A stretch of DNA of 64,000 nucleotides. Source: Polyangiaceae bacterium (GTDB taxonomy: Bacteria; Myxococcota_A; Polyangia; Polyangiales; Polyangiaceae). The notes beneath the pieces were generated by a model. That model saw nothing but the letters and a program-made list of their open reading frames with translations, was not told the origin of the DNA and ran no database searches. The translations under genes were made by a program, and so were the position numbers. Below are positions 43,037 to 63,481 of this stretch, piece after piece. The stretch covers positions 372,001 to 436,000 of the forward strand of contig JAHBVX010000002.1 of NCBI GenBank assembly GCA_019637295.1, in the 5' to 3' direction. Position 1 is the first letter of the stretch, and every line of letters starts with the position of its first letter.

Positions 43037-43068
43037 CCCGGAATTGGCGCTATATTTGCGCGTCCGGG
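43037..43068 (+). terminator. Two-part hairpin after the acyl-CoA dehydrogenase stop
   Basis: CCCGGA pairs with TCCGGG, and inside it GCGC pairs with GCGC around a TATATTT loop. It starts 3 bp after the stop. There is no T tract, so it may stabilise the 3' end rather than terminate. Confidence 0.5.
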
Positions 43069-44639: not shown

Positions 44640-45641
44640 TCAAGCAGGGGCGATGGGGTCGCGGTAGCTGGCCAGGACTCGCTGATAGCCCTGGCGCTCG
44701 AAGGCGCGCGGGTCCGGGCAGCGTGAGACGCTCATGCTGCCCCGCAGCGCCGCGAGCGAGGGGTACTCGTGTCGCTCGAGGAAGCTACGCAGTTCGGCGA
44801 GCAGGTCGCCGAATCGGCTCGGACCGTGGCGCAGCACGGCGGACACGACCTGGACGACGTGCGCGCCGGCCATCAACGCCTTGACGGCGTCTAGTCCGGT
44901 GTGGACGCCGCCGCTGCACGCCAGGGAGCCGCTCAGTCGGGGGGAGAGCAACGCGAGCCACCTCAGACGGAGCGGCAGCTCGGCGGACGTGGACAGCTCG
45001 AGCTGATGGCTGACCTCCAGCTCCTCGGCGTCGATGTCAGGCTGGTACAGCCGGTTGAAGAGCACGAAGCCGTTCGCTCCGGCTTCCTCCAGACGCACCA
45101 AGAGGTTACCCAGGCTGGTGAAGAACGGCGAGAGCTTCACGGTGACCGGGATCGTGATGCTCGCCTTCACCTGCAGCACCATCTGCAGCACCTCGGCCTC
45201 GATGTTCTCCGCCGTGCGCTCGGGATCGCTGCCGAGCTGGTAGACGTTGAGCTCGAGGGCGTCCGCGCCGGCCTGCTGGCATTCGACGGCGTAGCGGAGC
45301 CAGCCGGAGGCCGTGGTTCCGTTCAAGGAGGCGATGATCGGAACACCGGTCGCGCGCTTCAGACGCGCGATGTGAGCCAGGTACTGGTCGGGGCCGAAGA
45401 CGGCGTCCGCCGGCTCCGGCAGCACGCTCTTGGCCTCTGCGAAGTGGAAGTCGTCAGAGGCGCGGCGAAGGTGCTGCGCCTCCGCGGTGAGCTGCTCCTC
45501 GAACAGCGAGCGGAGCACGATCGCCGCGGCGCCGGCGTCGACCGCGCGCTGCGCCACCTCCTGCCGATCACCAATTGGCGAGGCGCCCACGATGAGGGGG
45601 CCCTTCAGCTCGAGCCCGAGATACGACGTTGCCAGATCCAT
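44640..45641 (-). CDS. Dihydroorotate dehydrogenase-like flavoprotein
   Basis: 333 aa with GGGAG 9 nt before the ATG. It has the FMN-barrel pattern of the DHOD family: MDLATSYLGLELKGPLIVGAS, ELNVYQLG, IPVTVKLSPFFTSL, and a C-terminal SGGVHTGLDAVKALMAGAHVVQVVSAVLRHG phosphate-binding region. The subgroup often lies next to pyruvate:ferredoxin oxidoreductase genes, as here, 21 bp after nifJ. It is probably not the pyrimidine enzyme but a ferredoxin-linked relative. This is inference from context. Confidence 0.85.
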   Translation of the reverse strand: MDLATSYLGLELKGPLIVGASPIGDRQEVAQRAVDAGAAAIVLRSLFEEQLTAEAQHLRRASDDFHFAEAKSVLPEPADAVFGPDQYLAHIARLKRATGVPIIASLNGTTASGWLRYAVECQQAGADALELNVYQLGSDPERTAENIEAEVLQMVLQVKASITIPVTVKLSPFFTSLGNLLVRLEEAGANGFVLFNRLYQPDIDAEELEVSHQLELSTSAELPLRLRWLALLSPRLSGSLACSGGVHTGLDAVKALMAGAHVVQVVSAVLRHGPSRFGDLLAELRSFLERHEYPSLAALRGSMSVSRCPDPRAFERQGYQRVLASYRDPIAPA

Positions 45642-45662: not shown

Positions 45663-49193
<3,531 letters not shown>

Positions 49194-49195
49194 GA

Positions 49196-49657
49196 TCAGC
49201 TCGCCTCTCCGTCGGGGAGCTTCACGCTGAGGACTGCGCAGGGAGCGGTGCGCACGACGCGCTCGGCCACGCTGCCCATCAGCACGCGACGCAGGCCCGT
49301 CCGACCGTGCGAGCCCATCACGATCATGTCGTACGCTCCTTGCTCGGCCAGCGTGACGATCAGCTCGTCAGGGCGGCCGACCTCCACGCGCGTCGCCACG
49401 GGCACCGTCGAGGGGCGAGCAACGGAGGCCACGAACTCCGTCATCTGGCGCAGCGCTTCCTTGCGCCCGATCTCTCCGAGGGTGCGGGGGGCGCCGGTCC
49501 CGACCTCGGACAGCAGAGTCTCGAGGGGAACCACGGTGGACGGTTCCCAGACGAAGAGCACGTCGACCTTGGTGCCGGTCCGCTCGGCAATCACCACCGC
49601 TAGAGCGAGGGCCTGACGCGACGCAGCAGAGAAGTCCGTAGGGACGAGGAGAGACAT
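49196..49657 (-). CDS. uspA: Universal stress protein, copy next to nifJ
   Basis: 153 aa from the ATG at 49657, with GGAG 7 nt upstream. A single Usp domain: LLVPTDFSAASRQALALAVVIAE at the start and the ATP-binding signature IVMGSHGRTGLRRVLMGSVAERVVRTAPCAVLSV at the end (G-2x-G-9x-G-S pattern). It lies between the REC-PAS kinase gene and nifJ. Usp proteins of this type help cells survive stress or low oxygen, though their partners vary. Two more copies lie upstream in the same direction. Confidence 0.92.
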   Translation of the reverse strand: MSLLVPTDFSAASRQALALAVVIAERTGTKVDVLFVWEPSTVVPLETLLSEVGTGAPRTLGEIGRKEALRQMTEFVASVARPSTVPVATRVEVGRPDELIVTLAEQGAYDMIVMGSHGRTGLRRVLMGSVAERVVRTAPCAVLSVKLPDGEAS

Positions 49658-49670
49658 GTCGCGCTCCAAT

Positions 49671-49684
49671 GCACGGCGCGTGCC
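49671..49684 (-). promoter_or_regulatory. Weak sigma-54-like element before uspA
   Basis: The minus strand reads GGCACGCGCCGTGC, which has the GG-N10-GC spacing. It is very close to the ATG (TSS would fall near 49659) and is also a palindrome, so it may be something else. Confidence 0.25.
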
Positions 49685-49694
49685 TCGAGCGCCG

Positions 49695-49702
49695 TTGCGC
49701 AA
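49695..49702. promoter_or_regulatory. Palindrome TTGCGCAA upstream of uspA
   Basis: Perfect 8-bp palindrome, about 38 bp before the uspA start codon. A longer copy lies 72 bp further upstream. Confidence 0.4.
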
Positions 49703-49765
49703 TTCTTCCTCGAAAATGTGCGAGCGCCGCGCGTCCTGCGCTGCGGTGCGGCGCCGGGCGAAGAG

Positions 49766-49775
49766 TTTGCGCAAA
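49766..49775. promoter_or_regulatory. Palindrome TTTGCGCAAA upstream of uspA
   Basis: Perfect 10-bp palindrome between the REC-PAS kinase stop (49778) and uspA. It resembles the TTTGC/GCAAA palindromes upstream of the CBS genes near 54.9-55.0 kb. Confidence 0.45.
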
Positions 49776-49777
49776 GC

Positions 49778-51187
49778 TCAGGTGGTAGTCTGCGGCAGCC
49801 GGATGCTGAAGCAGGTGCGCCCGGGACGCGACTCGAAGCCGACGGTGCCGCCATGTTCCTCGATGATGCGGTGCACGATGGCCAGCCCGAGGCCGGTGCC
49901 CGAGGTCTTGGTGGTGTAGAAGGCGTCGAACACCGGTGCGTCCTCGGGGATCCCCGGGCCGTCGTCCTCGATTTCCACCGACGCGAAGCCCTCCTCATCG
50001 GCCGGGCGGGTGCGGATGACGATGGTGCCGCCTCCGCTGCTTGCCTCTATGGCGTTGCGGACCAGGTTCAGGAGCACCTGCCGCAGGCGCTCGGTGTCGA
50101 CGTCGACGCGGACCGGCGCCAAGAGATCGAGAGTCAAGGCGCAGCCTTCCGCGGCGACCTCGGGCTCGAGTTGCACCACGACGCTGCCCACCAGCTCGTC
50201 GAGCGGCGCTGCGTTCACACTCATGGGGCTTGGCCGAGCGAAGGCGAGGAAGTCGTTCACCAGCCGCCCGAGGCGACGGATCTCGTCGTCCACGATGGCG
50301 ATCACCGGCAGGAGTGCCTCGGGGGCAACGTTGCCCTTGTCGATGCGCCGCCGTAACACCTGAAGCTGGAGACTCGCCGAGTTGAGCGGATTACGCACCT
50401 CGTGGGCTAGTCCCGCGGCTAGCGTGCCCACCGCAGCCAGCCGCTCCGCGCGGAGGGTGCGACGCATCATGGAGCGCTCCTCGGTGACGTCCATGCCGAG
50501 CGCGTAGGTGACGGCGCCGGAGCCACCAGGGAGCTCGGCGAGCTGCCAGCGCACCAAGCGGTGGCCGCCCCCCGGCAGCTCGAGCTTGCGATCCCCGCCT
50601 TGGCCCACCAGGTCGCGGCCCGGGAGCCCGAGCATTTCGCCGCGAGCGCGCCCGGTCGCTGCCTCCAGCTGCTGGTTCCAGAGCGCGATTCGACCCTCGG
50701 CGTCGAGCGCCAGCACGAACGCCGGCACCGCCTCGACGAGCTCGCGGTGGCGGCGCTCGGACTCCTCGAGCTCGAAGCGCAACGCCTCGCGCTCCCGAAC
50801 CAGCAAGGCCCGAGCGAGTGCCGCGCTCGTCGTCTGCACCAAGTCCGCGGGCGCGAAGGGCTTGGTCACATAGGCGAACGCACCGTGGCGGACGGCTCGC
50901 GCCGCGCTCTCGACCGTGGCGTCTCCCGTGATGATCAACACTTCGCAGTGTTGGCAGCTGCGCTGGATCTCTTGAACCAACTCCAAGCCGTCCGCGTCTG
51001 GCAGGTGCAGGTCGACGAAGGCAACGTCGAGCTTGGCGTGAAGCTCGAGGCAGTGGGCCCGAGCCTCGGCTGCGTTGGCGGCGGTCAGCGTGCGGATCGA
51101 GTACCCAGGGATCGTCGCCAAGATCTCGCATAAGTTCTCGGCCAAGTCGGCGTTGTCGTCGACGATCAGCGCGGTCGCGAGCTTCAT
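49778..51187 (-). CDS. Hybrid sensor: receiver-PAS-histidine kinase
   Basis: 469 aa. The receiver domain (1-120) has D59 (VAFVDLHLPDADG) and K109 (YVTKPF). A coil joins it to a PAS domain (about 145-240, AVPAFVLALDAEGRIALWNQQLEAATG). The kinase core has the phosphorylatable H262 (LAAGLAHEVRNPLNS), the N box LLNLVRNAIEAS, G1 DDGPGIP and G2 TGLGLAIVHRI. With its N-terminal receiver it can take phosphate from another kinase. Its start overlaps the stop of the double-receiver gene (ATGA), so these act as one relay with the globin kinase upstream. Confidence 0.93.
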   Translation of the reverse strand: MKLATALIVDDNADLAENLCEILATIPGYSIRTLTAANAAEARAHCLELHAKLDVAFVDLHLPDADGLELVQEIQRSCQHCEVLIITGDATVESAARAVRHGAFAYVTKPFAPADLVQTTSAALARALLVREREALRFELEESERRHRELVEAVPAFVLALDAEGRIALWNQQLEAATGRARGEMLGLPGRDLVGQGGDRKLELPGGGHRLVRWQLAELPGGSGAVTYALGMDVTEERSMMRRTLRAERLAAVGTLAAGLAHEVRNPLNSASLQLQVLRRRIDKGNVAPEALLPVIAIVDDEIRRLGRLVNDFLAFARPSPMSVNAAPLDELVGSVVVQLEPEVAAEGCALTLDLLAPVRVDVDTERLRQVLLNLVRNAIEASSGGGTIVIRTRPADEEGFASVEIEDDGPGIPEDAPVFDAFYTTKTSGTGLGLAIVHRIIEEHGGTVGFESRPGRTCFSIRLPQTTT

Positions 51188-51906
51188 GTCGAGTCGACTA
51201 CCTCCTGGACGCGGCTGACGAGGGCGTCGACGTCGAAGGGCTTGTCGATGCAGGTCATGTCGGGCTCGCGCGCCTCGTCGCGCAGTCGCTCGAGCTCTTC
51301 GGAGAACGCAGAGACGAAGACGACATGCAGGCCAGCGTTTCTAGCCTTCAGCTTCTTGGCGATGTCCACCCCCGCCGCGTCAGGCAGGCGCAGATCGACG
51401 ACCGCCACCCGGTGCAGGCGTCGGTCGGCGAGGGCCGCCTTGCCTGTGGCCGTCACGTCTGCCTCGAATCCGTGCAGGCGTAGCGCTTCAGCGATGTTAT
51501 CGGCGAGCGCCTCGTTGTCCTCGACAATCAGCACGCGTCGGTGTTGGAGCGCGAGTTCCGCGAGCAGCGCGGCGAGCCGCTTGGGCTCGAGGGGCTTGGC
51601 TAGGACCTCGAGCGCGCCCGCTTCTTCCGCGCGGGCGCGCGCCCGCGCGTCGATGAAGCCGCTCAGCACCACGGCAGGGACGCTCACATGCCGGCGTCTC
51701 GCCTCGGTCAGCAACTCCACGCCATCCAGCCGCGGCAGGCGATAGTCCGTGAGGATGGCGTCCACTGGGGTGGTGGCGAGCAGCTCGAGCGCGGCCACGC
51801 CGTCTGCGGCCACCACCGCCTGGTGGCCGAGGGCGTCGACCAGCTCCGCGAGGTTGTCCGCGAGGTCATGGTCGTCCTCCACGATCAAGACACGCAGCGA
51901 TGCCAT
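51184..51906 (-). CDS. Double-receiver response regulator without output domain
   Basis: 240 aa made of two receiver domains. Domain 1 has D54 (AILTDYRLPRLDG) and Lys in VLAKPLEP. Domain 2 has D171 (VAVVDLRLPDAAG) and Lys in CIDKPFD. Both phosphate pockets look intact and no DNA-binding or enzymatic output is present. Such proteins pass phosphate on or serve as a sink. It sits between two histidine kinase genes, with 9 bp to the upstream one and an ATGA overlap to the downstream one. Confidence 0.92.
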   Translation of the reverse strand: MASLRVLIVEDDHDLADNLAELVDALGHQAVVAADGVAALELLATTPVDAILTDYRLPRLDGVELLTEARRRHVSVPAVVLSGFIDARARARAEEAGALEVLAKPLEPKRLAALLAELALQHRRVLIVEDNEALADNIAEALRLHGFEADVTATGKAALADRRLHRVAVVDLRLPDAAGVDIAKKLKARNAGLHVVFVSAFSEELERLRDEAREPDMTCIDKPFDVDALVSRVQEVVDST

Positions 51907-51915
51907 GCTGAGCCC

Positions 51916-53142
51916 TCAGCGTAGCGCAGGAGCCGCGGGCTCGGCAGCCTCAACGACGCTCCCGGCGCGCGTCGGGAGCCAGACGCGGAAGACGGCGCCT
52001 GGACCGCCGTCCGCCACGCCGATCTCGCCGCCGTGGGCGCTGACGATCCGTCGGCACAGGGCCAGCCCGAGCCCAGTCCCTCGCGCTTTTGTGGTGTACA
52101 GCGCGTCGAAGATGCGGTCACGCAGATCGGCGGGCACACCGGGACCCTCGTCGCGCACCACGATCTCGGTGCCGTCCCCGGTGTCTCGGGCCTCGATCCA
52201 GAGCTTGCCGGTCGCGTTCTGCGCCTGGGCTCCGTTGACCAGCAAGTTCGACAAGACGTGGGCCAGGTCCAGCGGGTCTGCGTGGGCGCTGATGCCCTGC
52301 GGTAGCGTCACGAGCACCTCGATCTCGTCCCCGAGCGCCGCCAGCCCGAGCGCGTGCTCGACCACCTCGCCGAGGTCGCACACCTGGAGTGTGGGCCGCG
52401 TGTCGCGCGCGAGCTCCAGCAGGTTCGTGATGATCTTCGCGCAGTTCTTCACCTGCTGCTCGACCCGGGAGGCGTGCTTCTCCACGCCGGGATCCGAGTA
52501 GCCGCCCTGCTCGAATCGCGCGCGCATCAGGTACATGGACGACTCGATGATGCCGAGCGGGTTGCGCAGCTCGTGGCCAATGCTGGCGGCGAGCTGTCCA
52601 ATGGTAGCCAGGCGCTCACTGGCGCGCACCCGCGCGTTCAGGTCCTCGCGATAGGCGTCGAGCATGATCGCGAGCTCGATGTCCAGGATGCGGCCAACCG
52701 CCAGCGCGGTGGGTTCCGCGCGGGCAGGCGCTACATGGCGGAACGCAAGCTCGAGCAAGCGAGACCGGATGCGGTTCATGGCCGTGAACATGTACTGCTG
52801 AGGCAGCCCGATGCGGACGTGGACCCGTCCGATGCGCGCGTGCTGCTCGAGGTAGCGGGCGTCGTACGGGCCCTCGAGCACGCTGCCCATCCAGACGGTG
52901 AGCGTGTGCTTCAGCCGCTCGACCTGAGCGCTGCCCCCGGTGAACACGGCGCGTGCGTCGGGGTGCGCGGCGATGGCGGCGTAGAAATCCTCCGAAATAG
53001 CGGTGAAGAACGGCTGCGCGATGGGCAGTAGCTCGCGCAGCAACTCTTGGTCCCGCTCGGTGAACTCGACGTAGGCTCGGAGACTGTCGAGCCACGCCAG
53101 CCCGACGTCGCCTCCAGGACGGCGCTGTGCGCGCTCGGTCAC
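51916..53142 (-). CDS. Globin-coupled histidine kinase (heme oxygen sensor)
   Basis: 408 aa from the GTG at 53142, whose GTGA overlaps the stop of the upstream usp gene; a GTG 36 nt earlier is less likely. Residues 10-165 are a sensor globin of the globin-coupled sensor type: Y24 as likely distal residue (LRAYVEFTERD), FFTAISEDFYAAIAAHPDA, HTLTVWMGSVLEGPYDARY, and the proximal heme ligand H108 (IGRVHVRIGLPQQYM). The kinase core has H190 (LAASIGHELRNPLGI), N box VLSNLLVNGAQA, G1 RDEGPGVP and G2 GTGLGLALCRRI. It should bind oxygen or another gas through heme and set kinase activity. No membrane segment, so it is cytoplasmic. Confidence 0.9.
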   Translation of the reverse strand: MTERAQRRPGGDVGLAWLDSLRAYVEFTERDQELLRELLPIAQPFFTAISEDFYAAIAAHPDARAVFTGGSAQVERLKHTLTVWMGSVLEGPYDARYLEQHARIGRVHVRIGLPQQYMFTAMNRIRSRLLELAFRHVAPARAEPTALAVGRILDIELAIMLDAYREDLNARVRASERLATIGQLAASIGHELRNPLGIIESSMYLMRARFEQGGYSDPGVEKHASRVEQQVKNCAKIITNLLELARDTRPTLQVCDLGEVVEHALGLAALGDEIEVLVTLPQGISAHADPLDLAHVLSNLLVNGAQAQNATGKLWIEARDTGDGTEIVVRDEGPGVPADLRDRIFDALYTTKARGTGLGLALCRRIVSAHGGEIGVADGGPGAVFRVWLPTRAGSVVEAAEPAAPALR

Positions 53143-53600
53143 GATCCGGTTGACTCGCGGACCGTCAACACCGGGCACTGCGAGCGACGGACGACCTTCT
53201 CTGCCACGCTGCCGAGCAGCAAGTGCGCAAACCCAGTCCGGCCGTGCGTGCCGACGGCGATCATGTCGTAGCCGTCGCGGTCGGCGACGTCGACGATGAC
53301 CTTGGCTGCGTCGCCTTGTTCGACGAAGGCCTTGTCGATGGGCAAGCCCTCCTCCCGCGCGGCCTCGACGAACTCGCGGAGCCCTCGTTCGGCGTGTTCG
53401 CGCGCGAGCTGAGACAGAGTCTGACTGTTGCCGGCGACGCCGACCATCGCCTCGGGTGCGATGAACGCCGGCGCTTCCCAGACATGGATGACGTCCAGGG
53501 TGGCGCCGAAGCTCTTGGCCAACGTGGCGGCGCGATCGAGCGCCGCGCGAGAACAGGTGGAGAAGTCCACGGGTACGAGAATACGTCGTAGTTGCTGCAT
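53139..53600 (-). CDS. Universal stress protein, upstream copy A
   Basis: 153 aa with AAGGAG about 7 nt before the ATG. Usp domain: ILVPVDFSTCSRAALDRAATLAKSFGA at the start and MIAVGTHGRTGFAHLLLGSVAEKVVRRSQCPVLTV with the ATP-binding glycines at the end. It lies 21 bp after the next usp gene and overlaps the globin kinase start by 4 bp. The order usp-usp-sensor suggests a common stress transcript. Confidence 0.92.
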   Translation of the reverse strand: MQQLRRILVPVDFSTCSRAALDRAATLAKSFGATLDVIHVWEAPAFIAPEAMVGVAGNSQTLSQLAREHAERGLREFVEAAREEGLPIDKAFVEQGDAAKVIVDVADRDGYDMIAVGTHGRTGFAHLLLGSVAEKVVRRSQCPVLTVRESTGS

Positions 53601-53621: not shown

Positions 53622-54098
53622 TCATAGGCTATCGGCGCGCCCCGTGGGATCGGCACGCGGGCTGGGGACCACCAATACTGGACACGGGGCGCTGCGCACG
53701 CAGCGCTCGGCCACGCTGCCGAGCAGCCAGCGGCCCGGGGCGCCCCGCCCATGGGTACCCATGACGACCAGATCGTGTCCGTCGCGCTCGGCGATGGACA
53801 CGATGGCGCTCACCGGGTCGGCATGGACGACCTTCACGGTGGCGGCATCCGGCGCGACATCCTCCGCCACCAGGAACTCCTGCAGCTCGGTCTTGGCCTG
53901 CTCCTCCGCCAGTTGCCACAGAGGGCGGGGTCCCGTGCCCATCCAGACCAAGAGAGAGGGCTGAATGTAGTGCGGCACATGGTAGGCGAACACGATGGTC
54001 AGCTCGGCGTTCAACGAACGAGCCAGACCCAGGGCGGTCTGCAGCGCGTTTCGCGAGCAGGGCGAGAAGTCGACCGGGCACAGGATCTTGAACGCCAT
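53622..54098 (-). CDS. Universal stress protein, upstream copy B
   Basis: 158 aa from the ATG at 54098; an ATG 27 nt earlier is also possible. Usp domain with ILCPVDFSPCSRNALQTALGLARSL and LVVMGTHGRGAPGRWLLGSVAERCVRSAPCPVLVV. The HVPHYIQPSLLVWMG insert is its own feature compared with the two other copies. It lies 30 bp after the CBS gene and 21 bp before the next usp gene. Confidence 0.9.
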   Translation of the reverse strand: MAFKILCPVDFSPCSRNALQTALGLARSLNAELTIVFAYHVPHYIQPSLLVWMGTGPRPLWQLAEEQAKTELQEFLVAEDVAPDAATVKVVHADPVSAIVSIAERDGHDLVVMGTHGRGAPGRWLLGSVAERCVRSAPCPVLVVPSPRADPTGRADSL

Positions 54099-54128: not shown

Positions 54129-54866
54129 TCACTCGCGCTCTCGCGCGAGTGGGACCAGGTAGCCGTACCGACGTGCCATCCAGCGAAGCACGTCGAGCGC
54201 CGAGAGTACACCCACGACCTCGCCGCCGGTCTCCGAAACCACGACGATCCGGTGTACCCCCTCGTGCGCCATCAGCGCTGCGGCCGTGCTCAGGCGCTCG
54301 GAGTACCGCAGACAAAACGTCAGGGGCATCATGATTTCGGCGACCGTCTTGGAGCAGCTGCGAAGCTCGTGGAATCCGGGTCCGAGATCGACCTCGTACT
54401 CGCCCACGCGCAGGGGGCGGCCGGCGGTCACCTCCGTGTCGCCGTGCTCGGTATGCTCGCGCAGGAGATCCGTCTTCGTCACCACGCCGATGGGGCGCCC
54501 GTCTGCGTCGATCACCGGTGCGCCGCTGATGTTGCGCTCGATGAACAGCAGCGCCAGCGTGTCCAGAGTGGTGTCGGGCCGCACGCAGATGACCCTGTCG
54601 CTCATCAGCGATGAAATCGGCGGGTCCTCCCAGTCGTCCCCGGGGCCCTCCGGCTGAACCTCGAGCGGCGGTGACTCGCCGCGGCAGACGAGGAACGTGT
54701 GCCGATCCGAGCTGTCGACGTGCATGCCCTCACACCGCGTGCAGCGCAGGCACTCGTCGACATCCACCAGCGCCTGGCGCTCGAGGCAGTACACCGCGAG
54801 TCGCTCCTGCTCGCCGCCGACGTGGGTGACCCGTCGCACGCGGATGGGAAGGTGACGTTGGATCAT
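54129..54866 (-). CDS. CBS-domain protein with Cys-rich N-terminus
   Basis: 245 aa from the ATG at 54866. Residues about 25-65 contain CLERQALVDVDECLRCTRCEGMHVD and FLVCRGE, a Cys group that could bind a metal or sense redox state. Two CBS motifs follow: SSLMSDRVICVRPDTTLDTLALLFIERNISGAPVIDADGRPIGVVTKTDLL, and later AEIMMPLTFCLRYSERLSTAAALMAHEGVHRIVVV. CBS pairs bind adenine nucleotides and report energy state. It is the first gene of the run leading to the usp, sensor and nifJ genes. No sigma-54 site is found on this strand. Confidence 0.85.
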   Translation of the reverse strand: MIQRHLPIRVRRVTHVGGEQERLAVYCLERQALVDVDECLRCTRCEGMHVDSSDRHTFLVCRGESPPLEVQPEGPGDDWEDPPISSLMSDRVICVRPDTTLDTLALLFIERNISGAPVIDADGRPIGVVTKTDLLREHTEHGDTEVTAGRPLRVGEYEVDLGPGFHELRSCSKTVAEIMMPLTFCLRYSERLSTAAALMAHEGVHRIVVVSETGGEVVGVLSALDVLRWMARRYGYLVPLARERE

Positions 54867-54922
54867 GGTGCCCTGCTCCTCGGGACTGCGCCGCCAGGAT
54901 TGCCGCTCCAGATGCGCGCGCT

Positions 54923-54933
54923 GCAAACTTTGC
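54923..54933. promoter_or_regulatory. Palindrome GCAAA-C-TTTGC, candidate enhancer site
   Basis: Perfect 5+1+5 palindrome in the divergent region between the two CBS genes. Its centre lies about 121 bp upstream of the expected start of the sigma-54 transcript, a usual place for an enhancer-binding protein. Confidence 0.45.
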
Positions 54934-54990
54934 GGCGGTTCTGCGGCGCGGCAGAGAAATTGCTCGGAAGACGTTGGCTTGCGGTCGCCA

Positions 54991-55002
54991 TTTGCCGGCA
55001 AA
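54991..55002. promoter_or_regulatory. Palindrome TTTGCCGGCAAA
   Basis: Perfect 12-bp palindrome about 52 bp upstream of the expected start of the sigma-54 transcript. It has the same half-site as the palindromes near uspA and at 54923. Confidence 0.45.
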
Positions 55003-55023
55003 CACTGCAATCCTCACACCAGA

Positions 55024-55038
55024 GGCACGGCGGTTGCA
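55024..55038 (+). promoter_or_regulatory. Sigma-54 (-24/-12) promoter of the short CBS gene
   Basis: GGCACGGCGGTTGCA matches the consensus GGCACG-N4-TTGCA, with GG and GC exactly 10 nt apart. It predicts a transcript start near 55049, upstream of GAGGAG (55051-55056) and the ATG at 55065. Confidence 0.8.
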
Positions 55039-55064
55039 CTCGCTGGGCCCGAGAGGAGACCGAA

Positions 55065-55475
55065 ATGGTCGTCGCAGAAATCATGACAAAGGATCCCATG
55101 ACGGTGGACGCGGCCGCGCGCATCCGGGACGTCATCAGCTCCCTGTTCGAGCTGGATGTTCGCCACATTCCCGTCGTCGAAGGCAGGGAGCTGGTCGGCA
55201 TCATCAGCGACCGCGATCTGCGCGGCTTCTTGGCACCCGCGCTGGTCGAGCTGGAGAAGCCGTCGGACGTCGCGGCGAAGCTCAACCAGCCCATCTCGAC
55301 GGTGATGTCCTCGGACGTGCTCAGCGTCGATCCCGAGACCGAACTCTCCGAAGTCGTCGAGCTGATGCTCGACCACAAGGTTGGCGCCATCCCGGTCGTC
55401 GATCCGGACTCGTCCGAGCTCGTCGGGATCGTGAGCTACATGGACGTACTTCGGGCTGCCCAAGACTCGTTCTGA
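55065..55475 (+). CDS. Two-CBS-domain protein under sigma-54 control
   Basis: 136 aa, just one CBS pair: AEIMTKDPMTVDAAARIRDVISSLFELDVRHIPVV with SDRDL, then STVMSSDVLSVDPETELSEVVELMLDHKVGAIPVV with SYMDVL. The start has GAGGAG 8 nt upstream. Such small CBS proteins bind AMP or ATP and act on partners. It is the only plus-strand gene in the redox island and has a -24/-12 promoter, so an activator with an AAA+ domain encoded elsewhere must turn it on. Its 3' end overlaps the hydrogenase protease gene by 40 bp, tail to tail. Confidence 0.9.
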   Translation: MVVAEIMTKDPMTVDAAARIRDVISSLFELDVRHIPVVEGRELVGIISDRDLRGFLAPALVELEKPSDVAAKLNQPISTVMSSDVLSVDPETELSEVVELMLDHKVGAIPVVDPDSSELVGIVSYMDVLRAAQDSF

Positions 55476-55924
55476 ACGAGCTGTCGAACGAGAGCTGCGG
55501 CGCGCTTGGCTCCGAGTTGCGCCGCGGCGGAGGGCGCTGCGCCGATCCGGAAGTCGCCCTCGACGCCCACGCCCACGACGACCACTTGCTCCGGCAGCTG
55601 TCCCACCCTCGCGAGGAGCGCGAGCGCCGACGTGAGCGAAATCCCATGCGTGGACGCGCCGGCAGCACGTTCGGCCAGCTCGCTCAGGGCGAAGGCCGTG
55701 GCCTCTCCGAGCTCGCCACCCACGAGCGCATCGACGAGCACCACCCGGCTCGCGCCGTCGAGCGCGGTGAGCAGCTCAGCCGAGCTGCGCACCTTGAGCA
55801 GCACCACTCCGCCGAGGGTTCCCTCCAGCGCGTCCAGGGTCAATGCGCCCACGCCGTCGTCTCCAGCGCTCGGGTCCCCGAGGCCGACCACGACGGTCGC
55901 CCTGGCGCGCGGATCGGCGCTCAC
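55436..55924 (-). CDS. [NiFe]-hydrogenase maturation protease
   Basis: 162 aa from the GTG at 55924 that overlaps the large-subunit stop (GTGA). It has the HycI/HyaD/FrxA-type opening VVVGLGDPSAGDDGVG with the metal-binding Asp, then VVLVDALVGGE with a second acidic residue, and ASTHGISLTSALAL with the His. It cuts the C-terminal tail of the large subunit after the nickel-iron site is built. Being the last gene of the hydrogenase operon fits that role. Confidence 0.9.
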   Translation of the reverse strand: MSADPRARATVVVGLGDPSAGDDGVGALTLDALEGTLGGVVLLKVRSSAELLTALDGASRVVLVDALVGGELGEATAFALSELAERAAGASTHGISLTSALALLARVGQLPEQVVVVGVGVEGDFRIGAAPSAAAQLGAKRAAALVRQLVQNESWAARSTSM

Positions 55925-57213
55925 TGCCGCTCTATCCGCAGCTCGAGGAAGTGCGTCGAGCACGAGATGCAGGGGTCGTAGTTGCGGATGGCGTGCTCGG
56001 CCAGCACGCGCGCTTCGGCTTCGGGCAAGCGCGCTAGCTCGGGCGCGAGCACGCGCAGGTCGTCCTCGATGCTCTTTTGATTCTGCGACGTGGGCGGCAC
56101 GATCTTGGCGCTCTTCAGGCTGCCGCTGTCGTCCAGCTCATAGCGGTGGAAGAGCAGTCCACGCGGGGCCTCCGTCGCCGCGCGACCAACCCCGGCGGCC
56201 AACGGTACCGCCACTGCGCAGGCCGCGGGCGGTTCGTAGCGCGCGCACAGCGCGGCGGCCTCGTCCGCGGCCTGGATCACCTCCACGGCCCGCGCCAGGA
56301 TGGACCGGAAGGGATTGTCGCAGGGCAACTTCAATCCGCTCCGCTTCAGGGCGTCCCGTGCAGCCGGCCGCAAGTGGTCCTGATTGAGCGACAAGCGCGC
56401 GAGCGGCCCGCACACGTACCCGCCCCGCTCGCGAATGACCGAGTGCAGCGCCGTCGAGCGCGAGACCTGCTGCTCCTCGAACACGTCCTCGTACTCCGTC
56501 ACCGCGATGTCCAGGCCTCGGCTCGACACCACCCGTCCCTCGCAGTAGGGGTAGTCGGTCTCGTGCCGGAGCGCGACCAGCTCGTGGTCCGTCGACAGAC
56601 TGGGGTACTCGAAGCTAGCGAGCCAGTCGATGCAGCTTGCCATCTCGTCCCGAAGCCAGGCCAGCTCCGGCGCGAGGCTGCGGACGGCCTCGCGCTCTGG
56701 CGCCCGAAAGAAGCCGCCGACCTTGACGTTGATGGGGTGGATCTCGCGACCACCCACCGCGGTGACCAGCGCGTTGCCGGCCTTCTTCATGCGCAGCGCT
56801 GCACGGACCCGCTCCGGGTGGTCCCCGGCCATGGCGAGCGCGTCGCTGTAGCCCAGGAAGTCCGGGGCGTGGAGGAAGAAGATGTGCAGCAAGTGGCTCT
56901 CCAGCCACTCGCCCGCGTAGAGCAAGCGCCTGAGGCTGCGGATTTCGTCGCTGACGGTGATGCCCAGCGCGTCCTCGACGGCGCCGCAGGCGCTCATCTG
57001 GTAGGCGACCGGGCAGATACCACAGATGCGTGCGGTGATGTCCGGGGTCTCGAGCGCGGAGCGCCCCCGCAGGAAACCTTCGAAGAAGCGCGGGGGCTCG
57101 AAGATGCGAAGCTCGACGCTCTCGGCGACGTCTCCACGGAGCACGATGTGCAGCGAGCCTTCACCCTCCACGCGAGTGAGCAGTTCGACGGATAGGGTGC
57201 GAGTGGTGGTCAA
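55921..57213 (-). CDS. [NiFe]-hydrogenase large (alpha) subunit, group 3b-like
   Basis: 430 aa. The TTG at 57213 is the start supported by GGAG about 8 nt upstream; the upstream frame is filler inside the small-subunit gene. The L1 motif is ITARICGICPVAYQMS and the L2 motif is DPCISCSTHFLEL, giving four Cys for the Ni-Fe site. After the His the tail FLELRIERQ should be removed by the protease. Together with the diaphorase and Fe-S subunits it fits the cytoplasmic bidirectional NADP-linked group 3b enzymes. Subgroup is inferred from gene order and motifs. Confidence 0.93.
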   Translation of the reverse strand: MTTTRTLSVELLTRVEGEGSLHIVLRGDVAESVELRIFEPPRFFEGFLRGRSALETPDITARICGICPVAYQMSACGAVEDALGITVSDEIRSLRRLLYAGEWLESHLLHIFFLHAPDFLGYSDALAMAGDHPERVRAALRMKKAGNALVTAVGGREIHPINVKVGGFFRAPEREAVRSLAPELAWLRDEMASCIDWLASFEYPSLSTDHELVALRHETDYPYCEGRVVSSRGLDIAVTEYEDVFEEQQVSRSTALHSVIRERGGYVCGPLARLSLNQDHLRPAARDALKRSGLKLPCDNPFRSILARAVEVIQAADEAAALCARYEPPAACAVAVPLAAGVGRAATEAPRGLLFHRYELDDSGSLKSAKIVPPTSQNQKSIEDDLRVLAPELARLPEAEARVLAEHAIRNYDPCISCSTHFLELRIERQ

Positions 57214-57218
57214 GGTCG

Positions 57219-58016
57219 CTACTCCACGACGGGAAGGCGGACTCGATGCTCGTCCCCGAACGCGGGGGCGCCAACATTGAAGGTTCCGTACAGTCGCGCC
57301 ACGTCCGTGTCGGTCGCGCCCACGGATGCCAGTACCGGTGCCAGCGCCTGAACGCGAGGTGTGTCGCTGGGGCCGAAGCAACCGAAGCAGCCGCGTGAAA
57401 AACGGGGACAGAGCGCGCCGCAGCCCGTCTGCGTGACGGGGCCTAGACACGGCGTGCCGTGCGCCACGGTGACGCACACGACGCCTCGGCGCTTGCACTC
57501 GAGACACACCGAGTGACGCGGCAGTCGGGGAGCGCGGCCGTGAAGTGCGGCGATCAACACCTCGAGTAGCTGGGATTTGTCGACGGGGCAGCCGCGCAGC
57601 TCGTAGTCGACCGGGATGTGCTCGGCCACCCCAGAAGACGTCGCGAGGGAGTCGAGGTACTCGGGGTGAGCGTAGACGCTCCGCGCCAGCTCCGGGTAGG
57701 ACTGGAAGTTGCGAAGGGCCTGAATGCCTCCGCTGGTAGCGCAGGCGCCGATGGTGATCAGCAGCCTCGACTCTCGCCGCAGGGCTGCCAAGCGCTCGCG
57801 GTCCGCCGCGGTCGTCACCGAGCCCTCGACGAGCGTCACGTCGTAGGGCCCCTTCAGCAGCCGGCTCGACGCCTCCGGGAAGTACGCGATGTCGAGCGCG
57901 CCGGCGACGGCCAGCAGCTCGTCCTCGCAGTCGAGCAGGCTGAGCTGACAGCCATCGCAGGACGCGAGCTTGATCACGGCCAGCTTGGGCTTGGGCTTGG
58001 GTTTGGGCGTGGGCAT
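57219..58016 (-). CDS. [NiFe]-hydrogenase small (delta) subunit
   Basis: 265 aa from the ATG at 58016 (a GTG lies 3 nt earlier); TGATG joins it to the upstream reductase gene. It has the proximal-cluster motif [22 protein letters not shown] and [13 protein letters not shown]-terminal half carries many Cys ([31 protein letters not shown]) for further 4Fe-4S clusters. No twin-arginine signal, so the enzyme is cytoplasmic. The N-terminus has a KPKPKPK stretch not usual for the family. It passes electrons between the Ni-Fe site and the flavin subunit. Confidence 0.93.
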
Positions 58017-58831
58017 CACAACTCGCGGATGGTCATCAGGCGGCTGACTCTAGGATAGCGGAACACGGGGCCATCCCGGCAGATCAGGTAGGGTCCCAGC
58101 TGGCAGTGCCCGCAGGTGCCCACGCCGCACTTCATGTTGCGCTCGAGCGTGACCCAGACGTCTTCGGCGGCCACGCCGAGGCGCTCCAGTTCGCGAGCGG
58201 CGAAGCGCATCATGATCTCCGGCCCGCACAAGAACGCGACGGTGCTCGGCGGATCGACCACGAGCTCCGGGAGCAGCTTGGTGACGACGCCGACCGGGCC
58301 CTGCCAGCCTTCCGTGGCTCGATCCACCGTCACGCCCACGGTCGCGCCTTGGGCGCGAAAGCGCTCTAGCTCGCGGGCAAAGAGCAGGTCGTCCGCCGAG
58401 CGAGCACCGAAGGCGAGCGCGACGCGACGCACCCGCTTGGGTCGAGCGAGCGCCGCATACAGCGCCGGTCGGAGCGGCGCCAGCCCGATCCCGCCCGCGA
58501 CGAGCAACAGGTCTTGTCCGTGGGCTCGCTCCACCGGCCACGGTGAGCCAAACGGTCCGCGGACGTAGAGCTCGTCCCCGCTGCGGAGCGCGCTCAGGTG
58601 ACGGGTGACCTCGCCCACGACGCGGATGGTGTGGACGAGGCGCCCAGGCCGCCTGGGGCTGCCGCTGATCGAGATCGCGCACTCGCCGACGCCGGGTACG
58701 TGCAGCATGTTGAACTGCCCGGCCGAGAACGCGAAGCCCTCCGGAGCCTCCGCTTCCAGGGTGAAGGTGTCGTGGCTCTCCTGAGTGCGTCGGAGGACTC
58801 GGAGCGCATGGGGCACCAGAGGGTGAGTCAT
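58016..58831 (-). CDS. Hydrogenase gamma subunit: FAD/NAD(P)-binding reductase with Fe-S site
   Basis: 271 aa from the ATG at 58831 (ATGA overlap with the cNMP-binding gene). The FAD part has [22 protein letters not shown] and [10 protein letters not shown]. The NAD(P) part has [17 protein letters not shown] and [12 protein letters not shown]-terminal C-x4-C-x2-C motif ([11 protein letters not shown], with a further Cys in YLICRDG) holds a 2Fe-2S cluster. It is the HydG type of subunit and exchanges electrons with NAD(P)H. Confidence 0.93.
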
Positions 58832-59289
58832 CGGCCGAGCACGTCGAGTTGAGCAAGACGAGCTCGCTCGAGCCGATTGTGCACCCGCTCGAGCAGCCGC
58901 ATGGCGATGCGGAAGCCAAAGGAGTGATCCGAGGCGAGCTTGCCTCGCAGGCAAGCTCCGTCCACGGCGAAGGCCAGCACGGAGTCGAGGGCTCGCAGAT
59001 CGAGGTGCCAGGCGTGAGGAGGGAAGAGCACGTTCCAGCCGAGCACGTCGCCCGCGCCGACGGTCTCGACCCGCGAGACGCGCCCGGGCCGCTGCACCTC
59101 GAGCGCCACCGAGCCCGAGCGGATCAGAAACAGCGAGCTGGCGGGATCGCCCTCGCGAGCCAGGAAGGCGCCTGACGCCGTGCGCTGGTTCTTGGCGCAG
59201 CCGGCCAGGAAGGCCACGTCTTCCTCGCGCAGCCCTTGGCACAGGGGATGCTCGCCCAAGGAGCGGCTGAGGTCGGACAGTTCGGTCAT
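58828..59289 (-). CDS. Cyclic nucleotide-binding domain protein of the hydrogenase operon
   Basis: 153 aa from the ATG at 59289 (ATGA overlap with the Fe-S subunit gene). It is a CNB domain: GAFLAREGDPASSLFLIRSGSVALEV and GAGDVLGWNVLFPP. It ends in a helix with no helix-turn-helix DNA-binding domain. The usual R-x-A phosphate-binding motif of cAMP sites is not clear (VLGWNVL). A CNB gene at this place is also found in the hyh operon of Mycobacterium smegmatis, so it is probably a fixed part of this hydrogenase type. Its ligand is unknown. Confidence 0.87.
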   Translation of the reverse strand: MTELSDLSRSLGEHPLCQGLREEDVAFLAGCAKNQRTASGAFLAREGDPASSLFLIRSGSVALEVQRPGRVSRVETVGAGDVLGWNVLFPPHAWHLDLRALDSVLAFAVDGACLRGKLASDHSFGFRIAMRLLERVHNRLERARLAQLDVLGR

Positions 59290-60428
59290 GGGTCGGTCTC
59301 CAGGCTGACGTCGTCGCGCAGGCGGGCGACTTCTCGGGTCAGGTCGATGGCTGCGGGGCACCACGTGATGCAGCGGCCGCAGCCCACGCAGCCGGAGCGG
59401 CCAAACTGATCGATCCACGTCGCGAGCTTGTGCGTGAGCCACTGGCGATAGCGTGCGGCGACGTCGTTGCGAACCGGGTGGCCGTGGACGGCGGAGTAGT
59501 CCGCCGAGAAGCACGAGTCGTGCTGCCGCGTCCGCTCGTGGCTCTCGCCGTCGAGGGACGACTTGTCTACGATGTCCACACAGAAACAGGTGGGGCACAC
59601 CGCGGTGCAGTTCGTACACGCCAGGCAGCGGGAGCCCACGTCCTGCCAGTGCGGGTGCTCGAGTCTGGAGAGCAACATCTCCCGCAGGCCTTGGGTGTCG
59701 AGCTGACGCTCCATCCCGCGGCTGGTGCGAAGCGCGATGCCTGCGGCCGCGCCTTGATCCTGTTCGCTGGCGGTCGAGAGGCCGAGCTCGGTCGCGATCT
59801 CGAGCGCCTCGGCGCTGCCGATCTCGACCAAGAATCGGTGGGGCCCGTCAAGCAGCTCGGTGAGCGAGAGATCAAACCCCCGGGTTGGCCGGGGGCCGGT
59901 CCCGAAGGACGTGCAAAAGCAGGAGGAACGACTCTCGCTGCAGCTGACGGCCACGATGAAGGCCGCCTCGCGCCGTGCGACGTAGAACGGGTCGGCGTGC
60001 GCACCTTCGGCCAGGATCTCGTCTTGGGTCTCGATGGCGGCGAGATCGCAGCCCCGGGCGCCGACGAGCGCCACCTTGGAGGTGTCGACGGGCTCCGGAG
60101 AGAACCGCACGCGGTCGCCGTCTCGGCGCGCACGGAACAGGCGCTGCACGGGGACGAGGAACGTGCGCTTGAAGCTGTCCGGCCCGACGACGAACCCGAA
60201 CACCGCGTCGTCGTTGCGGCGCCGGAGGCGATAGCGGCCTGGGGCGTGTTCGTCCGTGTAGCCCACGGGCAGGTCCGCGCTGCTCTTCACCGTGTCGAGC
60301 ACGATCACCCCGTCGCGTACCCTGGGGCCGATGACGCGATAGCCTCGGGCGCGCAGCCGCTCGAACAAGTCGTCCAGCCGCGCTCGCGGCAGCACGAAAG
60401 GTGGCGACAGGGTGCGAATCGAGGACAT
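59286..60428 (-). CDS. Hydrogenase beta subunit: 4Fe-4S electron-transfer protein
   Basis: 380 aa. Its N-terminal two thirds match the HydB/AsrA-type fold (VALVGARGCDLAAIETQDEIL, AVSCSESRSSCFCTSFG). The C-terminal third has two ferredoxin-type clusters, CLACTNCTAVCPTCFC and CVGCGRCITWCPAAI. It hands electrons between the flavin subunit and a partner such as ferredoxin. It stands 9 bp after the glutaredoxin-like gene. Subunit order beta-(CNB)-gamma-delta-alpha is that of group 3b operons. Confidence 0.92.
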   Translation of the reverse strand: MSSIRTLSPPFVLPRARLDDLFERLRARGYRVIGPRVRDGVIVLDTVKSSADLPVGYTDEHAPGRYRLRRRNDDAVFGFVVGPDSFKRTFLVPVQRLFRARRDGDRVRFSPEPVDTSKVALVGARGCDLAAIETQDEILAEGAHADPFYVARREAAFIVAVSCSESRSSCFCTSFGTGPRPTRGFDLSLTELLDGPHRFLVEIGSAEALEIATELGLSTASEQDQGAAAGIALRTSRGMERQLDTQGLREMLLSRLEHPHWQDVGSRCLACTNCTAVCPTCFCVDIVDKSSLDGESHERTRQHDSCFSADYSAVHGHPVRNDVAARYRQWLTHKLATWIDQFGRSGCVGCGRCITWCPAAIDLTREVARLRDDVSLETDP

Positions 60429-60437
60429 CTCGCGACG

Positions 60438-60806
60438 TCACTCGGTCAGCAGGCGCTCGAGCTCGCCGCTCTGAATGAGGCGCTCGAGCTCGGACGCGCC
60501 ACCGATCAGCGCGCCCTTGACGAACACCATCGGGAAGGTTGGCCAGCCGGTCCACATCTTCAGAGCAGTGCGCCTGCGCCAAGCGCCGAAGTAGCTGCCA
60601 TACTCCAGGTACAGATGCTCAATCCCGCGGGCGTCGAGCAGCTTTCGGGCGCGCCTCGGGTGGGGATTCTGGCTCATGCCGACTACCACGACGTCGTTCT
60701 TCGAAATCGCGCCTTGAACTTCTTCCACGATGTCCCGGTGGTGGCTACTGACCTTGTCCCGAATGGCGTCGTGCAGGTGGGCTTCGTCCAGGATGGGGCG
60801 TGACAT
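60438..60806 (-). CDS. Glutaredoxin-fold protein lacking the active-site cysteine
   Basis: 122 aa from the ATG at 60806. It follows monothiol glutaredoxins along most of its length: VVVVGMSQNPHPRRARKLLDARGI, LEYGSYFGAWRRRTALKMW, the cis-Pro loop GWPTFPMVFVKGALIGGASEL. At the place of the CGFS active site it reads NPHPRR, and the protein holds no Cys at all. So it cannot do normal thiol exchange or bind a 2Fe-2S cluster the usual way. As the first gene of the hydrogenase operon it may be a scaffold or a redox-blind adaptor. That is inference. Confidence 0.83.
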   Translation of the reverse strand: MSRPILDEAHLHDAIRDKVSSHHRDIVEEVQGAISKNDVVVVGMSQNPHPRRARKLLDARGIEHLYLEYGSYFGAWRRRTALKMWTGWPTFPMVFVKGALIGGASELERLIQSGELERLLTE

Positions 60807-60815
60807 TGCTCGGCG

Positions 60816-60843
60816 GGTGTAACGCATCGCCAGCACGTGTCAA
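60816..60843 (-). promoter_or_regulatory. Sigma-70 type promoter of the hydrogenase operon
   Basis: On the minus strand, perfect TTGACA (60838-60843), 16-nt spacer, TACACC (60816-60821), then 9 nt to the ATG at 60806. The transcript would begin within 2-4 nt of the start codon. Confidence 0.65.
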
Positions 60844-60849
60844 CGAGAG

Positions 60850-62634
60850 TCAGGGCGGGCTGCCCTTTTCGTCGGCTACCCAGCGCTGCAGGTACCGGGT
60901 CTCGAGCTGCTTGAAGGCGCGCTGGGTCATGTCGCCGTAGACCTGCGTTTCCAGCGCGCCATCGGCGGGCTTTCCCTCGTAGCCCTCCAGCACCGAGCGA
61001 GCCACGTTCTCCGCCGCCGTGAACTTCGTGGTCAGGGGTTGGTCGTCACCGGGCACGACGAAGGATGTGCGAAAGAAGACGAGCAGACCCACCAGCACGG
61101 CCCTGGGGTTGCGATTGGCGAAGGCTCCGCCCGACCACTCCACGCGGTAGTGCACGAGCAAGGTCGGCGACTCGAGCTCGAGCGCGCTCGCTGCTTCGGG
61201 CGTCAACGTGGGCCCCGACTCGAAGGTCAAGAGCTCCCTGGGAAAGACCGCGGAAAGACGGCGGGCGAGCGCGGCGGCGAGCTCGTTCTCCCGCGGCTCG
61301 AGCCGCTCCGGCCCGAAGTACCGCGTCACGTAGGCCGTCGTTCCGTTGAACATCGGGTTCTGGCGGATGGCGCCGTCGGCGCGAGACAGCGTGGTCGAGG
61401 GTTCTCGGACCAGGCGAACGTGCGCCGCAGGTCCGCGATAGCCGGCGCCCTCTCGCCGGGTACCGACCTTCTCCGAGTAGCGAGTGAGTCGCTCCGCGAA
61501 TGAGCGCACCGACTCGGCGTCTCCGGGGATGGACCGCGCTACCCGGGCGAGGGCGGACTCGTACAACTGAGCGCGCGCGTCGTCCCAGGGCTTGCCGATG
61601 CCGTGATCCGGATACTTCTCTGCGTAGCCAAGCAGCGCGTCGAAGGTCTGGGCGGCGCGTACCTGCTCGAACTCGCGCACGAGCGCGACCCGGCGCGCGT
61701 GCTCGACCTCTTGCAGGATCTCCTGGTGCGGGCTTCTCTCGCGAAAAGCGTCGATGGCGTCTACCGTGCCCTCGGCGATCGCTGCGGATAGTTGCGCACG
61801 CGGCAGCGCGACTCGAGCTATTTGCTCGCGGTGACGCTGGCCCCGCTCCAGGTAACGCTCGTAGGTCGGCACGTCGTTCTTCGCCGTCACGTAGGCCAAC
61901 ATGCGGTCGTCGCTCAGCCGGTTGCGGAGCACGAACACGCCCGCGCCGAGCAGCAGACCGAGAGCCGCGGCCACGACGCGCGGGCGAGCCTCCCAGACCG
62001 CGGCGTCGCGAGCCAAGGGGACCGTGGGCGCCAACGGGCTCAGCATCGTGGGCGCTTCCAGCGGATCCTGTTCGAACCGCTCGGCGTCCGTCAGGGCGGA
62101 GGCAGCGCGTTGCCGGAGTCCGTCGACGCGGGCGACGGCCTCCGGCACCCGCGCCGGGTCGGAGACGGGCAGCTCGATCGTCCCGCGGGGCAGCTCGAGT
62201 CGCACCGACGCGCCAGAGCCAGGCGCCACGGCCGTGACCTCCCCCAGCGCATGGACCACGAGCCGCGGCTCGCGCGCATCGACCACGTTGGCGGGGAAGA
62301 GGTAGATGCCCGGCGCGAAGGGCAGCGCGCCGACTCGCGCGCGCCAGGCGAGCACATGCAGCACGCCGCCCACTGCGACTGCCGCCAGGCCGACGTGTGC
62401 CGCGGTGGCAGGGATGGGGTGCAACGCGAGCGCGCTGGACAGATCACCGAGCCCGATGAGGAACAGCGCCAGCCATGCCCCGGCTGCGAGCGCGCTGATC
62501 AACAGGCCGAGCAGGTGCCGCCGATTCGGACCCGGTCGCAGCAGCACGGGCTCGGGCACTCCGCGTCCAACGAGCGAGTCGACCAGACGATCCTGCTGCG
62601 GCCGGGGCAGGCTGTAGAAGTCCAGGGCTCGCAT
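60850..62634 (-). CDS. Membrane protein with large helical domain, function unknown
   Basis: 594 aa from the ATG at 62634; the frame is open upstream but the start fits the edge of the divergent esterase gene. Two membrane segments lie at about 45-70 and 75-100 (LLGLLISALAAGAWLALFLIGL, PATAAHVGLAAVAVGGVLHVLAW). A third is at about 215-235 (VVAAALGLLLGAGVFVL). A beta-rich domain sits between, and after the third segment follows a domain with helical repeats (PTYERYLERGQRHREQIARVAL, TFDALLGYAEKYPDHGIG). I recognise no family. The FERQ-type regularities hint at TPR-like packing. Confidence 0.7.
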   Translation of the reverse strand: MRALDFYSLPRPQQDRLVDSLVGRGVPEPVLLRPGPNRRHLLGLLISALAAGAWLALFLIGLGDLSSALALHPIPATAAHVGLAAVAVGGVLHVLAWRARVGALPFAPGIYLFPANVVDAREPRLVVHALGEVTAVAPGSGASVRLELPRGTIELPVSDPARVPEAVARVDGLRQRAASALTDAERFEQDPLEAPTMLSPLAPTVPLARDAAVWEARPRVVAAALGLLLGAGVFVLRNRLSDDRMLAYVTAKNDVPTYERYLERGQRHREQIARVALPRAQLSAAIAEGTVDAIDAFRERSPHQEILQEVEHARRVALVREFEQVRAAQTFDALLGYAEKYPDHGIGKPWDDARAQLYESALARVARSIPGDAESVRSFAERLTRYSEKVGTRREGAGYRGPAAHVRLVREPSTTLSRADGAIRQNPMFNGTTAYVTRYFGPERLEPRENELAAALARRLSAVFPRELLTFESGPTLTPEAASALELESPTLLVHYRVEWSGGAFANRNPRAVLVGLLVFFRTSFVVPGDDQPLTTKFTAAENVARSVLEGYEGKPADGALETQVYGDMTQRAFKQLETRYLQRWVADEKGSPP

Positions 62635-62663
62635 GGGGCGGCCTTGGATGATACAAGAGGATC
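62635..62663. promoter_or_regulatory. Short divergent promoter region with TGATAC/GTATCA core
   Basis: Only 29 bp separate the two divergent reading frames as first possible starts. The core GATGATACAAG carries TATCAT for the minus gene, 13 nt from its ATG, and GATACA for the plus gene, so the two promoters must overlap. Confidence 0.35.
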
Positions 62664-62678
62664 GTGCCCTGGGTAGCG

Positions 62679-63467: not shown

Positions 63468-63481
63468 GGGCGGGTCAGCGG

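Follow-up and report, generated by a model that had tools for sequence, protein, structure and literature searches.

What drives the short gene for a two-CBS-domain protein that stands back to back with a longer CBS-domain gene in this myxobacterial genome, and which regulator acts on it? The 198 bp between the two genes (54867-55064) lie in the window, that is, the whole 64,000-nucleotide stretch analysed here, C12:372001-436000 of a 7.65-Mb genome that we call G000; other genomes, contigs and loci carry similar handles. The original prediction proposed a sigma-54 promoter in this gap, two TTTGC/GCAAA palindromes upstream of it and further ones before a usp gene at 49.7 kb, and one enhancer-binding regulator for the whole island, encoded outside the window. 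We consider it likely (probability roughly 0.8) that the region is a sigma-54 promoter of the short CBS gene belonging to a low-oxygen circuit of the NmpR type, with the activator predicted to sit at a site that we call S1 (Table 1).

Table 1. Promoter elements, operator-like sites and genes of the island, in window coordinates (strand "." where none applies; scores are those of the operator matrix).
Feature	Position	Strand	Remarks
Dihydroorotate dehydrogenase-like protein	44640..45641	-	in G022, a DHO_dh-family gene has operators and a -24/-12 element upstream
Pyruvate:ferredoxin (flavodoxin) oxidoreductase (PFOR)	45663..49193	-	TIGR02176, over cut-off
Universal stress protein (uspA of the original prediction)	49196..49660	-	
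Possible -24/-12-like element AGGCACGCGCCGTGCA	49670..49685	-	12 bases before the usp ATG; 2 mismatches from consensus
Weak operator-like site GCGCAATTCTTCCTC	49697..49711	.	overlaps TTGCGCAA; score 8.6
Operator-like site GCGAAGAGTTTGCGC	49758..49772	.	overlaps TTTGCGCAAA; score 11.3; core not intact
Hybrid REC-PAS-HisKA-HATPase kinase, NmpS-like	49778..51187	-	relative in G007 directly before NmpR-like gene
Double receiver protein, NmpT-like	51184..51906	-	Response_reg in 2 stretches, no other family
Protoglobin histidine kinase, NmpU/AfGcHK-like	51916..53178	-	Protoglobin 6.7e-34, HisKA, HATPase_c; open frame, start unsettled
Universal stress protein	53139..53600	-	
Universal stress protein	53622..54098	-	
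Longer CBS-domain protein (CBS-long)	54129..54866	-	divergent neighbour, head of minus-strand gene run
Operator S1 CTGCAAACTTTGCGG	54921..54935	.	contains GCAAACTTTGC; score 9.7; GCA-N5-TGC core intact; 3 mismatches to GCGCA-N5-TGCGC
Weak possible tandem partner of S1, GCAGAGAAATTGCTC	54951..54965	.	exactly 30 bp on; score 6.1; core not intact
Second palindrome TTTGCCGGCAAA	54991..55002	.	about 52 bp upstream of inferred start; genome-unique, not conserved, out of operator register
Second GCA-N5-TGC core CGGCAAACACTGCAA, uncertain	54996..55010	.	overlaps half of TTTGCCGGCAAA; score 3.3
Weak divergent -24/-12-like element TGGTGTGAGGATTGCA, tentative	55006..55021	-	faces CBS-long; 3 mismatches in G000 and G001, 2 in G014
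-24/-12 (sigma-54) element AGGCACGGCGGTTGCA	55023..55038	+	AGGCACG-GCGG-TTGCA; sole pattern match in window
Short protein with two CBS domains, 136 aa	55065..55475	+	target gene

The -24/-12 element, AGGCACGGCGGTTGCA, departs from TGGCACG-N4-TTGCW at one base, the first of its -24 box, which is A rather than T, and its GG and GC are exactly 10 bases apart, as a sigma-54 promoter demands. Its core, GGCACG-N4-TTGCA (55024-55038), is the sole exact GGCACG-N4-TTGCW on either strand of the window. We infer that transcription starts at about 55049; an AGGAG and then the ATG (55065) come after it. In the whole of G000 the same pattern occurs 31 times against 6 for the reversed control pattern, and the genome holds one RpoN gene; the element is therefore beyond chance. 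A search of 59 genomes returned CBS orthologues in G001, of the genus of G000 (77% identity), and in G014 (64%); the next matches were in G022 (57%) and G007 (52%). In the two closest relatives the gene is preceded by a -24/-12 element in a conserved block (CGGCATGGGCGTTGCA in G001, GGGCATGCGCGTTGCA in G014); no such element stands directly before the CBS gene of G022 or G007, and in G007 it sits before the usp gene that precedes the CBS gene. Among 30 CBS loci examined, most of them distant, an element with at most two mismatches lies within 260 bp in eight, the window's own included; a separate CBS scan of contigs (eight loci, best identity 52%) was left out of the footprinting. Letters, placement, genome-wide enrichment and the elements of G001 and G014 thus agree that the short CBS gene has a sigma-54 promoter, as originally proposed.

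The promoters of an NtrC-type regulator gene in G000, G001, G007, G010 and G014 share a 15-mer, RCGCAA-N3-TTGCGY, often doubled, with copies often 29-31 bp apart, and followed by GGCACG-N4-NTGCA. This unit was derived before the papers on NmpR were consulted, and it is the same as the GCGCA-N5-TGCGC published for that regulator of Myxococcus xanthus. According to PMC11841059 and PMC6211767, NmpR sites stand before sigma-54 boxes and are 14-15 nt apart at five of seven bound promoters, and the core GCA-N5-TGC is present at all NmpR-bound sites. Our scoring matrix was built from seven regulator-promoter sites and from none of the CBS promoters.

In the CBS promoter of G000 this matrix picks out S1, and the matching promoters have GCGCAAGTTTTGCGC (G001) and ACGCACTCATTGCGC (G014) as the S1-type operator. 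S1 has three mismatches to GCGCA-N5-TGCGC, one more than the M. xanthus site search tolerated per site (PMC11841059), whereas the sites before the CBS genes of G001 and G014 stay within two. Start-to-start pairing at 29-30 bp is present at G001, G014 and G007; in the CBS promoter of G000 the 30-bp partner of S1 is degraded, and a second core lies 75 bp away. A score of at least 9.7 is reached by 1.4% of 1277 window tiles of 198 bp. Because scores above 9 occur upstream of exact -24/-12 sites in 2 of 30 stretches (30 of the 31 sites) and in 2 of 60 control stretches, S1 alone is not decisive. Two GCA-N5-TGC cores, as in this promoter, were matched in 37 of 2000 shuffles; pooled over the CBS (or usp-CBS) promoters of four genomes, stretches that were picked after the operators were known, nine cores stand against 0.71 expected, a count that none of 2000 shuffles matched. 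It is this recurrence across four genomes that lends S1 its weight.

As a genome-wide marker the single operator GCGCAA-N3-TTGCGC was dropped: hits and controls in five genomes (30/34, 99/79, 52/53, 106/94 and 32/34) differ by little or no excess. The combination TTGCG-N36-66-GGCACG-N5-TGCW was found at 51 places in eight genomes versus 34 in the control, with 6 versus 1 in G000 (two of the 6 being one promoter); operator plus -24/-12 pattern gave no excess in G010, G022 and G032.

A candidate for the regulator emerged from the matching island of G007, where an NtrC-type activator gene lies between the hybrid kinase and usp. Its relative in G000, C21:410145-411545, has 73% identity (the next G000 matches have 48-50%) and encodes an NtrC-type response regulator with REC, sigma-54 AAA+ and HTH_8 domains; operators of the same type and a -24/-12 element precede it. 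Since this gene carries the same operators and promoter element and its partner proteins, judged by domain content, are encoded in the window, the proposal of one sigma-54 regulator encoded elsewhere finds support, with binding by the C21 product predicted from the motif. The gene is unlinked to the U-T-S genes in G000, while in G007 it directly follows the hybrid kinase. It lies past a cbb3 oxidase gene, in which a single frame spans ccoN and ccoO, at a distance of about 6 kb, and the short reading frame just before the regulator gene looks CcoS-like; a matrix scan at a score of at least 8 found no site just before ccoN in G000. G014 has a full regulator relative elsewhere; in its island, G014:C92:14384-15667 (L071) encodes an activator-like protein of NtrC type that shares the recognition helix but has an AAA+ domain without the GAFTGA loop, and yet an operator-like site and AGGCACGCTGGATGCA stand before this gene.

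Among 30 activator loci of G000, only the C21 regulator has two sites above 10 (one of them a training string); L082 has a single site of 16.3, and the remaining 28 reach at most 8.5 (in four, the upstream region was not reached). The site of L082 (G000:C25:254779, an NtrC-type gene), ACGCAACTATTGCGG, is strong and lies near the frame opening. All 98 family genomes searched for the regulator gave a match, and the best 30 loci were taken: five from the training genomes, 11 new relatives (65-82% identity, outside the matrix) and 14 less similar proteins (59-63%). Eight of the 11 new relatives have an operator of at least 10, one of them marginally (L225, 10.5), and seven also have a -24/-12 element with at most two mismatches; the operator is missing in three. 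These 11 are not independent, two being of the genus of G014 and genera g22, g33 and g3 contributing two each; in both g33 and g3 one relative has the operator and one lacks it. None of the 14 less similar proteins has an operator of at least 10 and one has such a -24/-12 element: L239 (62%), with two sites at most one mismatch from the published consensus in addition, which counts against the NmpR reading.

Two other proteins had come into question as the regulator. C12:449531, the activator gene closest to the CBS gene at a distance of about 22 kb, was passed over because the island activator of G007 has its closest relative on C21, and the product of 58828-59619, in the hydrogenase gene run, has only a cyclic-nucleotide-binding domain, with no DNA-binding domain detected. 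The reach first ascribed to the regulator, the whole island, finds no support: no operator core was found in the 264 bp before the hydrogenase gene run, and the matrix gives no score of 7 or more from 54936 to 64000.

The palindromes fared differently from the promoter element, although the letters and distances given for both were all correct. GCAAACTTTGC (GCAAA-C-TTTGC, 54923-54933) is centred about 121 bp upstream of the inferred start, and before the usp gene at 49.7 kb TTTGCGCAAA lies at 49766-49775 and TTGCGCAA at 49695-49702, the latter recurring at 42738, far from uspA. The genome-wide search that had been named as a refuting test found no enrichment of the palindromes as written: TTTGC-N0-8-GCAAA gave 6 versus 6 in the control (two of the 6 within the window's island) and GCAA-N1-5-TTTGC 37 versus 39, and both orientations were dropped as the site. 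TTTGCCGGCAAA is not supported as a regulator site: TTTGC-N0-6-GCAAA was not found ahead of the CBS gene in either G001 or G014, and TTTGCCGGCAAA does not keep the operator register. The TTTGC half-site, in either orientation, yields to RCGCAA-N3-TTGCGY, which is the unit that recurs. The idea of an enhancer-type site upstream holds for GCAAACTTTGC, as part of this larger unit.

How far could other explanations account for these observations? Chance yields some matches to GGCACG-N4-TTGCW (6 per genome in the control), and with a -24 box opening on A the element might be a chance match, the CBS gene being transcribed from a promoter of the ordinary kind. We regard this as very improbable, given the fivefold enrichment of the pattern in the genome, the elements at the matching place in two relatives and the right distance of AGGCACGGCGGTTGCA from the AGGAG motif and the ATG. 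Somewhat less remote, yet still unlikely, is a genuine sigma-54 promoter driven by a different NtrC-type activator, perhaps via TTTGCCGGCAAA, with S1 a coincidence: the genome holds 44 strong matches to Sigma54_activat, S1 is imperfect and of modest score, and TTTGCCGGCAAA is a perfect palindrome with a single occurrence in the whole genome. What speaks for an NmpR-type activator instead is that the S1-type operator, and not the TTTGC palindrome, recurs ahead of the CBS genes of G001 and G014, and that the operator of the NmpR-like gene is found at related CBS or usp promoters of other genomes.

A further possibility would add to the NmpR reading rather than replace it. Beside the forward box of G000, G001 and G014 stands TGCAA-N7-ACCA, which on the opposite strand reads TGGT-N7-TTGCA with GG-N10-GC, pointing toward CBS-long in all three aligned genomes. 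The minus- and plus-strand elements might form one two-way promoter under NmpR control, from which CBS-long, the two usp genes, the nmpU-T-S-like genes, the third usp gene and PFOR are transcribed as well; the nmpU operon of M. xanthus is reported to be NmpR-dependent. We hold this tentatively, with the balance somewhat against it: the minus-strand element has three mismatches in G000 and G001 (two in G014), the two elements almost touch, the operators would fall downstream of the minus-strand start, and a single long minus-strand transcript is deduced from gene direction only.

Elsewhere in the window the operator-like sites near the 49.7-kb usp gene are weak, and none has an intact core. The top operator score of the window, 18.9, belongs to GCGCTATATTTGCGC at 43047-43061, before the gene at 43145, and no -24/-12 element with at most two mismatches was found alongside. 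On contig C160 of G001 (L067, L068) the hydrogenase proteins of the window are unmatched, and instead, not far from the CBS gene, there is a cytochrome d1 (nitrite reductase-like) gene; ACGAAATAGTTGCGC (score 14.4, core not intact) precedes it, together with GGCAC-N5-TTGC seen by eye (three mismatches).

Thirty loci taken from the eight-genome pattern places were scored for further candidate targets at a cut-off of 9.5. An operator of at least 9.5 lies upstream in 11, two of which are the G000 regulator itself (a training locus). Seven of the remaining nine precede usp (G014, G001, G007), CBS (the window, G010), DHOD-like (G022) or hydrogenase-type genes, the last a frame in G014 followed by a Fer4_22 gene that resembles the hydrogenase beta-type subunit gene of the window; we take this frame to be ACP-like. 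Of the last two, one stands before an acyl-CoA dehydrogenase gene in G000, the other before a GAF-activator gene in G010. Among the 19 lower-scoring loci, which include L208 (a locus of which another match was taken), no first frame falls into the usp, CBS, DHOD or hydrogenase Pfam families (11 match no family), so that 7/9 stands against 0/19 (Fisher 3e-5), or 5/7 against 0/19 (3e-4) without the window and G007. At G000:C12:131758-131839 (L200), ACGCAATCGTTGCGC and GGCACGCCCGTTGCA precede an acyl-CoA dehydrogenase family gene, a possible further target.

Independently of the operator, an ATG lies exactly 12-13 bases after GGCACG-N4-TTGCW in 13 of 30 G000 loci (L002-L031), with at most two in controls at any offset. 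At offsets of 11-14 bases it is found at 17 of 34 matches in G077 and 10 of 21 in four other genomes (G020, G021, G032, G048), and many of the frames opening there look exported or lipoprotein-like by eye. With this spacing, transcription from sigma-54 would be expected to begin right at the start codon, which suggests leaderless sigma-54 transcripts; we found no published account of leaderless sigma-54 promoters in myxobacteria.

The circuit can be pictured by analogy with Myxococcus. PMC11841059 and PMC6211767 describe NmpRSTU of M. xanthus as the protoglobin kinase NmpU, the dual receiver NmpT, the hybrid kinase NmpS and the NtrC-like NmpR. Among the targets are the CBS gene with which the nmpR operon starts, the nmpU operon, a usp gene and genes of the cbb3 oxidase. 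In G000 the protoglobin kinase, whose sequence matches the globin-coupled histidine kinase of PDB 5ohe (E 1.4e-34), would read oxygen; as oxygen falls, the hybrid kinase would become active and phosphorylate the C21 regulator, which would bind S1 and, once phosphorylated, switch on RNA polymerase-sigma-54 at the CBS promoter and at its own. Binding, the direction of the phosphorelay and the oxygen response are, like the transcript start, what we infer.

From domains, gene order and motif, the two systems are alike in U-T-S order and domain make-up, in the NtrC-like regulator and its site motif, in sites placed before sigma-54 boxes, and in targets, among which M. xanthus has a CBS gene transcribed divergently as well as genes of the system itself. 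They differ in that the regulator gene of G000 is unlinked to U-T-S and lies near cco genes, that S1 is more degenerate, that usp genes and PFOR share one gene run, and that in relatives the candidate targets extend to hydrogenase-type, cytochrome d1 and DHOD-like genes. AfGcHK of Anaeromyxobacter sp. Fw109-5 (PDB 5ohe) is likewise a globin-coupled histidine kinase whose partner is a double receiver protein, in another organism and with regulated genes described as unknown (PMC8697598). PMC11841059 also mentions usp genes in a hypoxia-induced dormancy regulon. In its low-oxygen response with usp proteins, the present circuit would work like that regulon without being a member of it. We take the regulon to be DosR of mycobacteria, a low-oxygen response with CBS proteins; to our knowledge, DosR is not a sigma-54 activator.

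It is possible, if rather doubtful on present indications, that the NmpR-type sigma-54 circuit of this myxobacterial family serves a broad low-oxygen and anaerobic programme, taking in usp, CBS, pyruvate:ferredoxin oxidoreductase, [NiFe] hydrogenase, nitrite reductase and cbb3-linked genes, and relies on sigma-54 promoters that work in both directions and, for some targets, on transcripts starting at or beside the start codon. What had been an orphan promoter becomes a testable circuit, with sensor, relay, regulator, operator and promoter named in one genome. If the reading is true, a regulon studied in Myxococcus reaches another myxobacterial family, and the control of stress and anaerobic energy genes by oxygen through sigma-54 may extend more widely than the single species in which it was worked out.
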